Positions 37,026 to 38,520 of a stretch of 64,000 nucleotides of DNA are shown piece by piece (the first letter of the stretch is position 1; the number at the start of each line of letters is the position of its first letter). The stretch spans positions 62,001-126,000 of the forward strand of contig JAIXWG010000064.1 in NCBI GenBank assembly GCA_027482245.1, given 5' to 3'. The stretch is from Acetobacteraceae bacterium. GTDB taxonomy: Bacteria > Pseudomonadota > Alphaproteobacteria > Acetobacterales > Acetobacteraceae. Under the pieces are notes generated by a model, which did not search any database, was not told the DNA's origin, and saw only the letters and a list, made by a program, of their open reading frames with translations. A program made the position numbers and the translations under genes.

Positions 37026-37100
37026 AGCGAAGCGGCTGCGAATCTTTCCTTGCAGCCCCCGCCCGGGCACCCCATCCTCCTGGCTGTCCCGCAACAACCG

Positions 37101-37114
37101 AAAGGAGGTGATCC
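37101..37114 (+). promoter_or_regulatory. Extended Shine-Dalgarno fully complementary to the 16S rRNA 3' tail
   Basis: AAAGGAGGTGATCC is the exact reverse complement of the canonical 16S tail GGATCACCTCCTTT. Confidence 0.8.
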
Positions 37115-37115
37115 A

Positions 37116-37181
37116 GTGTCTCATTGCCCCAAGGCGTCCACCGAGACTGCAGCCTGGATCATCGCCGGCGCCATCGCGTAG
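37116..37181 (+). CDS. Candidate 21-aa micro-ORF/leader peptide VSHCPKASTETAAWIIAGAIA
   Basis: GTG start 7 nt after AGGAGG, stop TAG at 37179-37181, hairpins downstream; not in the ORF track because of its size. Confidence 0.55.
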   Translation: MSHCPKASTETAAWIIAGAIA

Positions 37182-37202
37182 GCGAGTCACCAGACGACCG
37201 CA

Positions 37203-37254
37203 GCCGGTTCGCCGGCAGCAATGGAAGGCCTCGGGGGGCGACCCCCGGGGCCTT
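37203..37254 (+). terminator. UUCG-loop hairpin followed by strong GC hairpin (terminator/attenuator-like)
   Basis: GCCGG-ttcg-CCGGC (37203-37216) and AAGGCCtCGGGGG-gcga-CCCCCGgGGCCTT (37225-37254); no strong T-tract. Confidence 0.6.
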
Positions 37255-37320
37255 CGCTGTTTCGGGAACCCGCGCGCGGCCCGCGCGATCAGGCCGAACC
37301 CTTCCGGATACGACCGGCCG

Positions 37321-38520
37321 ATGTCCTCCCTCTCCGCGCTGAACGCGCTGAACTTCTTCATTGCGGATGTGCGGGACGGGCTCGGCCCCTTCCTCGGCGT
37401 CTTCCTCCAGCAGCATGGCTGGTCCCCGGCTGCGATCGGCATCGCGATGAGCCTGGGCGGCGCCGCGGGAATGGCGGCGACCACGCCGATCGGCCTGCTG
37501 GTGGATGCCACGCACCGCAAGCGGGCGCTGCTGGTGATCGCCGCCCTGCTCATCGTCCTGGCCTGCGCGGTGAACTACTTGGCGCCGGTCTTCGCGGTGA
37601 CGGTCGCGGCGCAGATGATCGCGGGCATCGCCGCGGCGGCCGTCGCACCCTGCATCGCCGCCATCACGCTCGGCCTGGTGCGGCAGCAGGGCTATGCGCG
37701 GCAGCTCGGCCGCAACGAATCCTCCAACCACGCGGGCAATGCCGCAGCCGCGGGACTGGCGGGGCTGCTCGGCTGGTGGTTCGGGCTGGTCGCGGTCTTC
37801 GTGCTGATGGCCGCCATGGCGATCGCCGCCATCGTCGCGGTGCTGCTGATCAACCCACGCGACATCGACCACGCCGCGGCCCGCGGCGCGACGGAGGGTG
37901 CGGCGGCCACGCCCGTACTGCGCACGCTGCTCGGCTCCGCGCCCCTGCGGCTGGTGACCGGGACCGTCATGCTGTTTCACCTGGCCAATGCCGCGATGCT
38001 GCCGCTGCTGGGCCAGGCGATGGTGGCGCGCGGCACGGGGGTGGATGCCGCGGGCTACACGGCGGCGACGGTGATCCTGGCGCAGGCGACGATGATCCCG
38101 ATGGCGCTGCTGGCCGCCGGGCTGGCGGCGCGGCGGGGCTATGGGCTGGTCTTCATCCTGGCGCTGGCCGCGCTGCCGATCCGCGGGCTGATCGCGGGCG
38201 TCGTAGACAATCCGCTGGCGATCATCCCGGTGCAGGTCCTGGATGGCGTGGGCGCCGGGCTGCTGGGCGTCGCGGTGCCCGGGATCGTCGCCCGCATCCT
38301 GGATGGCAGCGGCCACGCCACGGCGGGGCTGGCGGCGGTGATGACGATGCAGGGCATCGGGGCCTCCCTGAGTGCCACGGTCGGCGGCGTGGTCGCGCAG
38401 CAGGCGGGCTATGGCGCCGCCTTCCTGGTGCTGGCGGTCATCGCACTGGCGGCGCTGGCGCTGTGGCTGGCGGGCGGCGCGGTGCTGCGGCCGGCGGCGG
38501 GGCAGCCCGCTATGCCGTGA
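37321..38520 (+). CDS. MFS transporter
   Basis: MSSLSALNALNFFIADVRDGLGPFLGVFLQQHGWSPAAIGIAMSLGGAAGMAATTPIGLLVDATHRKR; multiple TM segments. Confidence 0.88.
   Translation: MSSLSALNALNFFIADVRDGLGPFLGVFLQQHGWSPAAIGIAMSLGGAAGMAATTPIGLLVDATHRKRALLVIAALLIVLACAVNYLAPVFAVTVAAQMIAGIAAAAVAPCIAAITLGLVRQQGYARQLGRNESSNHAGNAAAAGLAGLLGWWFGLVAVFVLMAAMAIAAIVAVLLINPRDIDHAAARGATEGAAATPVLRTLLGSAPLRLVTGTVMLFHLANAAMLPLLGQAMVARGTGVDAAGYTAATVILAQATMIPMALLAAGLAARRGYGLVFILALAALPIRGLIAGVVDNPLAIIPVQVLDGVGAGLLGVAVPGIVARILDGSGHATAGLAAVMTMQGIGASLSATVGGVVAQQAGYGAAFLVLAVIALAALALWLAGGAVLRPAAGQPAMP

Follow-up and report, generated by a model that had tools for sequence, protein, structure and literature searches.

The first Caulobacter ncRNAs are reportedly to be traced to the work of Landt in 2008. 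One Caulobacter small RNA, CC2171, gives its name to the Rfam family RF01867, and in Mesorhizobium huakuii the RNA MH_s33 was given as a match to this family, with a sequenced product of 215 nt (PMC5596092). In 2014 Schrader reported that most Caulobacter ncRNA regions are untranslated and that two earlier Caulobacter ncRNAs were found to be translated, their names being absent from the text (PMC4117421). In the papers searched, neither a function of CC2171 nor a description of it as coding or ribosome-related was found, and searching the literature with the sequence brought up mainly 16S primers, while a search with the peptide gave no match. We have found that a 64,000-nt stretch of an Acetobacteraceae genome (hereafter the window) carries a member of RF01867, matched by cmscan over model positions 1-159 at 77.4 bits against a gathering score of 75. 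What was known already is the Rfam name; what is new here is an open reading frame of set length and a range of class-wide relatives scoring far below the gathering threshold. The elements of the locus are as follows.

37050-37078, plus strand: promoter-like boxes, TTGCAG (37050-37055), a 17-nt spacer and CATCCT (37073-37078)
37092-37253, plus strand: RF01867 (CC2171) small RNA, cmscan match over the whole model length
37100-37116, plus strand: GAAAGGAGGTGATCCAG, 17-nt complement to the 16S tail
37116-37181, plus strand: micro-ORF of 21 codons, GTG to TAG
37122-37127, plus strand: CATTGC, 5' arm of the closing stem (codons 3-4)
37154-37163, plus strand: CTGGATCATC, 16S-tail-like segment, complementary to GGTGATCCAG at 37107-37116 of the same RNA
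37203-37216, plus strand: UUCG-loop hairpin, GCCGG-TTCG-CCGGC
37218-37223, plus strand: GCAATG, 3' arm of the closing stem
37224-37255, plus strand: terminator-like hairpin (14-bp stem, GCGA loop) with a weak T-rich stretch behind it

The original prediction had described an exact 14-nt complement to the 16S tail, a GTG one nucleotide further on, a UUCG hairpin and a strong GC hairpin just ahead of an MFS gene, and all of these are present where it placed them. The 14-mer AAAGGAGGTGATCC occupies 37101-37114 and is followed by A37115 and the GTG (37116-37118); with G37100 and A37115-G37116 the complement is in fact slightly longer, 17 nt. The micro-ORF runs to an in-frame TAG at 37179-37181 (translation VSHCPKASTETAAWIIAGAIA), and the strong hairpin ends 65 nt from the ATG of the MFS gene at 37321. 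Transcription is predicted from the boxes to start at about 37085, and their placement agrees with that of the promoter-like blocks which, together with a CAACAA-like leader, lie 5' of the Shine-Dalgarno (SD) sequence in relatives, being sharpest in Bradyrhizobium (CCCTT...TATATT) and Rhodobacteraceae (TTTGACA). Across the family the layout is one of promoter-like boxes, a leader of about 12 nt, a 16S complement of 14-17 nt, an ORF of 14-26 codons and a strong terminator-like hairpin. In relatives this hairpin is kept, a strong GC hairpin being found within about 130 nt past the stop at nearly every site, while the UUCG loop is not. Because the leader and promoter-like blocks lie 5' and the GC hairpin 3', the whole looks like a monocistronic unit of about 165-200 nt.

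The SD match of the window is real and well past chance. AAAGGAGGTGATCC is the sole site in the window at two or fewer mismatches, with 0.15 expected, and the 6.39-Mb genome has a single copy of the 16-mer AAAGGAGGTGATCCAG. A 16S tail was sought in this draft assembly and none was found; the tail GGCTGGATCACCTCCTTTCT was seen in 8 of 24 other motif-positive genomes, and a Sinorhizobium meliloti 39-mer contains the same one (PMC6943124). Within the searches used the 14-mer was invariant, and the G preceding it is also kept, most strictly in the window's clade, where the complement is thus 17 nt. When the host family was searched with a longer pattern allowing two mismatches, 61 genomes matched, three more than with the exact motif, and since only one of the added sites (AAATGAGGTGATCCAATGTC) was convincing, in the host family the 14-mer appears to be either perfect or missing along with its gene, as far as a pattern search sees, genes with a strongly altered SD being beyond its reach. 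A chance motif was ruled out by the mismatch count in the window and by the genome surveys. An rRNA-derived fragment was likewise rejected: its resemblance to the antisense strand of 16S ends after 16-17 nt, the window gave no match to an rRNA family and the element is kept class-wide.

Of 399 genomes sampled across the phylum, 66 have the pattern AAAGGAGGTGATCCNDTG, consisting of the exact motif and a start codon, while the reversed-pattern control over the same genomes gave none. All 66 belong to the Alphaproteobacteria (66 of 136, against 0 of the 263 genomes sampled from the rest of the phylum, by our own count of the table), nearly always with one copy per genome. In the host family the exact motif occurs in 58 of 120 genomes, one of which has two copies, and a plasmid search gave one partial, unannotated match in Methylobacterium. 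When RF01867 itself was run on 386 genomes of the class, 85 matched at E <= 0.001 and 14 of these passed the gathering score; thus the Rfam threshold takes in a small part of the family, and the Bradyrhizobium, MSSD and Rhodobacteraceae groups have matching sites that score beneath it. On viral contigs, which served as a control, the same 18-mer was met ahead of ordinary phage ORFs of 13 to more than 200 codons, and a perfect SD alone is therefore an ordinary phage device too. The mark of the family is the perfect SD combined with a short ORF and a hairpin, the SD by itself being unspecific.

Perfect SD sites were also seen outside the Alphaproteobacteria. At Planctomycetota-type sites (L043, L044, L046, L053, L089, L116 and L216-L218) the SD is followed by an ORF of 9-19 codons, several of these sites having a terminator-like hairpin, and in the phylum of L046 6 of 200 genomes match, the query genome counted in. 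Six non-alphaproteobacterial sites (L074, L092, L132, L111, L052 and L216) have in common a GAGGTGG shortly 5' of the stop of the short ORF.

We compared the micro-ORF across four clades, whose peptides are unrelated (VSHC..., VSRVILERGVGT..., MSSE/MSSD... and VSYTKRCHLAGIAR). In the four clades, 98, 100, 93 and 100% of the sites have their first in-frame stop at codons 12-28, as against 4-67% in the other two frames, and TAA, TAG and TGA are all in use; translation and termination therefore look selected, the latter at a set place. ORF length is fixed at 18 codons in all Rhodobacteraceae and at 14 in all Bradyrhizobium. Synonymous-biased conservation of the codons, which the original prediction had offered as a check, was not what we saw: in independent close pairs the substitutions are even over codon positions 1, 2 and 3 (49, 55 and 38 in the VSHC clade; 18, 25 and 19 in Rhodobacteraceae), and the ratio of nonsynonymous to synonymous change against expectation is 0.90 for VSHC, 1.14 for Rhodobacteraceae and 1.75 for MSSE. 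In these three clades no purifying selection on amino acids was found, in a codon test whose power is limited by 41 independent pairs, short ORFs and four pairs without change in the tested codons. Since there is no synonymous bias and the peptides of the clades differ, the peptide looks free of selection at the sensitivity of this test. The early codons are kept down to the wobble base in relatives, which points to constraint at the RNA level. The spacing of SD, GTG and ORF, proposed earlier as the feature whose loss would count against the element, was found in relatives, the start spacing being part of the search pattern, so that conservation of the start codon lacks independence. At three Azospirillum-type sites (L087, L126, L140) and one of the Geminicoccaceae (L063), the perfect SD and final hairpin accompany an ORF of 57-59 codons with a signal-peptide-like start.

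Two structural features accompany the ORF. In the closing stem, CATTGC (codons 3-4) pairs with GCAATG ahead of the terminator, and both sides of its variable pair have changed in 10 of 39 sequences. Cognate arms beat permuted ones in 300 of 300 trials for VSHC and 299 of 300 for MSSE, with kinship left in, and were not better in Rhodobacteraceae. The second feature is a 16S-tail-like segment able to base-pair with the SD of the same RNA (in the window CTGGATCATC, in Rhodobacteraceae CAYCTCC-like), of which CTGGAT is conserved in alignment A2. Against dinucleotide shuffles the pairing was significant at 16 of 29 Rhodobacteraceae sites, with 1 for the decoy, and at 4 of 17 MSSE, 2 of 4 Bradyrhizobium and 3 of 74 sites of VSHC, the window's clade. 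A general claim of SD mimicry was dropped, as the signal obtained with mononucleotide shuffles shrank with dinucleotide shuffles and stands for Rhodobacteraceae only. Because clade-wide significance was reached there alone, self-sequestration of the SD is supported as a prediction for that one large clade and is suggestive in the others. In Rhodobacteraceae alignment A1 a small hairpin (CTAAGGG-CAAT-CCCTTAG in L095, for example) has the stop codon at its 5' edge and seems to vary along with it.

The reading we favour, at a probability of about one half, is that of a translated, 30S-docking structured RNA of the CC2171 family, in which translation is selected and the peptide is not. The gene would give a transcript of about 165-170 nt from its own promoter to its own terminator, in favour of which the Mesorhizobium member is transcribed as an RNA of 215 nt, and the leader would base-pair over 14-17 nt with the 3' tail of 16S rRNA, loading a 30S subunit at the GTG. 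Ribosomes would then read the short ORF and let go about 40 nt ahead of the terminator, what is selected being translation itself, that is loading, transit and timely release. In a closed fold the internal 16S-tail-like segment would mask the SD, while the open fold would be ribosome-bound, and the folding, stability or base-pairing of the RNA may thereby track the supply of initiating 30S subunits. Sequence evolution supports the invariant SD, the frame-specific stop, the unconstrained peptide, the covarying stem and the conserved hairpin, while the promoter, 30S binding, fold switching and any downstream or cellular effect are what we infer. Among the earlier options, an RNA that binds 30S subunits is favoured by the invariant 14-17-nt complement, the binding being predicted from sequence. 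As a counterpoint, the early stop could be selected merely to guard the downstream structure, and the longer signal-peptide-like ORFs of Azospirillum and Geminicoccaceae also speak against the favoured reading, as do the restriction of clade-wide SD self-sequestration to Rhodobacteraceae and the negative closing-stem result in that clade. A bolder form, in which a class-wide RNA docks on the 30S subunit through its perfect 16S complement and has an ORF of fixed length but no content translated, ribosome occupancy serving to gauge or buffer free initiating subunits, is tentative and rather doubtful as it stands.

An improbable though serious alternative is an untranslated or barely translated small RNA that binds the 16S tail as such, on free 30S subunits or pre-16S, the start codon and early stop being by-products of a strong site; the stop would be selected because the site would otherwise drive ribosomes through the downstream structure. 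The complement exceeds what initiation needs and is invariant over its full length, amino-acid constraint was not found, and the untranslated state of most Caulobacter ncRNA regions noted above points the same way. However, the narrow ORF length, fixed in two clades at 18 and 14 codons, is tighter than protection of a structure needs. The perfect SD, start codon and set length could also belong to a small mRNA making a functional micropeptide at a high rate, with the recurrent VSHC start and mid-peptide W of one clade and the longer Azospirillum ORFs on its side. Yet substitutions are even over codon positions with N/S near expectation, the peptides of the clades are unrelated, and the VSHC and W codons overlap RNA pairing segments, so that this is an unlikely explanation; of the highly translated micropeptide first suggested, translation is supported by the frame-specific stop and the peptide is not.

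It was also considered that the 16S-tail-like segment might act in trans, pairing with the SDs of other mRNAs and gated by its own SD and ribosomes, as the Caulobacter SisA-D small RNAs use anti-SD motifs (PMC12559287). The CAYCTCC segment of Rhodobacteraceae, significant far more often than its decoy, would suit such a role, but the signal is weak in the window's clade, and we hold this to be decidedly unlikely. Least probable by far is a transcription-attenuator leader of the MFS gene, another of the initial suggestions, in spite of the micro-ORF, the hairpins and the start of a gene on the same strand 65 nt further on. In the window the RNA lies between an AMP-binding ligase on its upstream side and the MFS gene on its downstream side, and neighbours are conserved within clades only, the downstream genes varying by lineage and sometimes lying on the opposite strand; an attenuator is rejected because the neighbour genes differ. 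A conserved regulated gene directly downstream is absent across lineages, the clades share no run of regulatory codons, and the window RNA comes with its own promoter-like boxes and terminator-like hairpin. In Rhodobacteraceae a Vut_1 transporter lies upstream at 33 of 35 sites and an RF-1-domain, ArfB-like gene downstream at 28 of 35 (L095 and L115, for example). An ArfB-like ribosome-rescue gene with an RF-1 domain also lies nearby, on the other strand, at the MSSE-type sites L069, L130, L186 and L187, and a link of these neighbours to ribosome rescue is possible. At Bosea and Methylobacterium sites (L045, L048, L068, L118, L124, L188) an RNase R-like gene lies downstream, of which the tested fragment matched a cold-shock domain weakly.

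That a single-copy RNA gene is found in about half of the sampled alphaproteobacteria, free of mismatches to the ribosome's tail and with an ORF that appears to be selected for its length rather than its content, suggests that translation itself is put to regulatory use. Compared with what has been described, the window RNA is closest to RF01867, with which it shares the leader, SD, early codons, closing stem and final hairpin in a full-length match; the CAUUGUC/GACAAUG stem that closes the model before the final hairpin has its counterpart in CATTGC/GCAATG. The difference is that Rfam files CC2171 as a small RNA gene, whereas here there is an ORF of set length. It resembles dual-function small RNAs or small mRNAs such as rnTrpL of S. 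meliloti (PMC10117765) in being a short RNA of the Alphaproteobacteria whose micro-ORF, of about 14-26 codons, is translated, the translation being predicted in our case, but rnTrpL is leaderless and comes from the trp attenuator, while the window RNA has an extreme SD, a unit of its own and an unconserved peptide. With the extended SD-aSD initiation of Staphylococcus aureus (PMC13009471) it has in common a pairing that goes past the core toward the start codon; in S. aureus this steers start choice on ordinary mRNAs, whereas in the window it takes the form of a perfect 14-17-nt complement on a stand-alone RNA.
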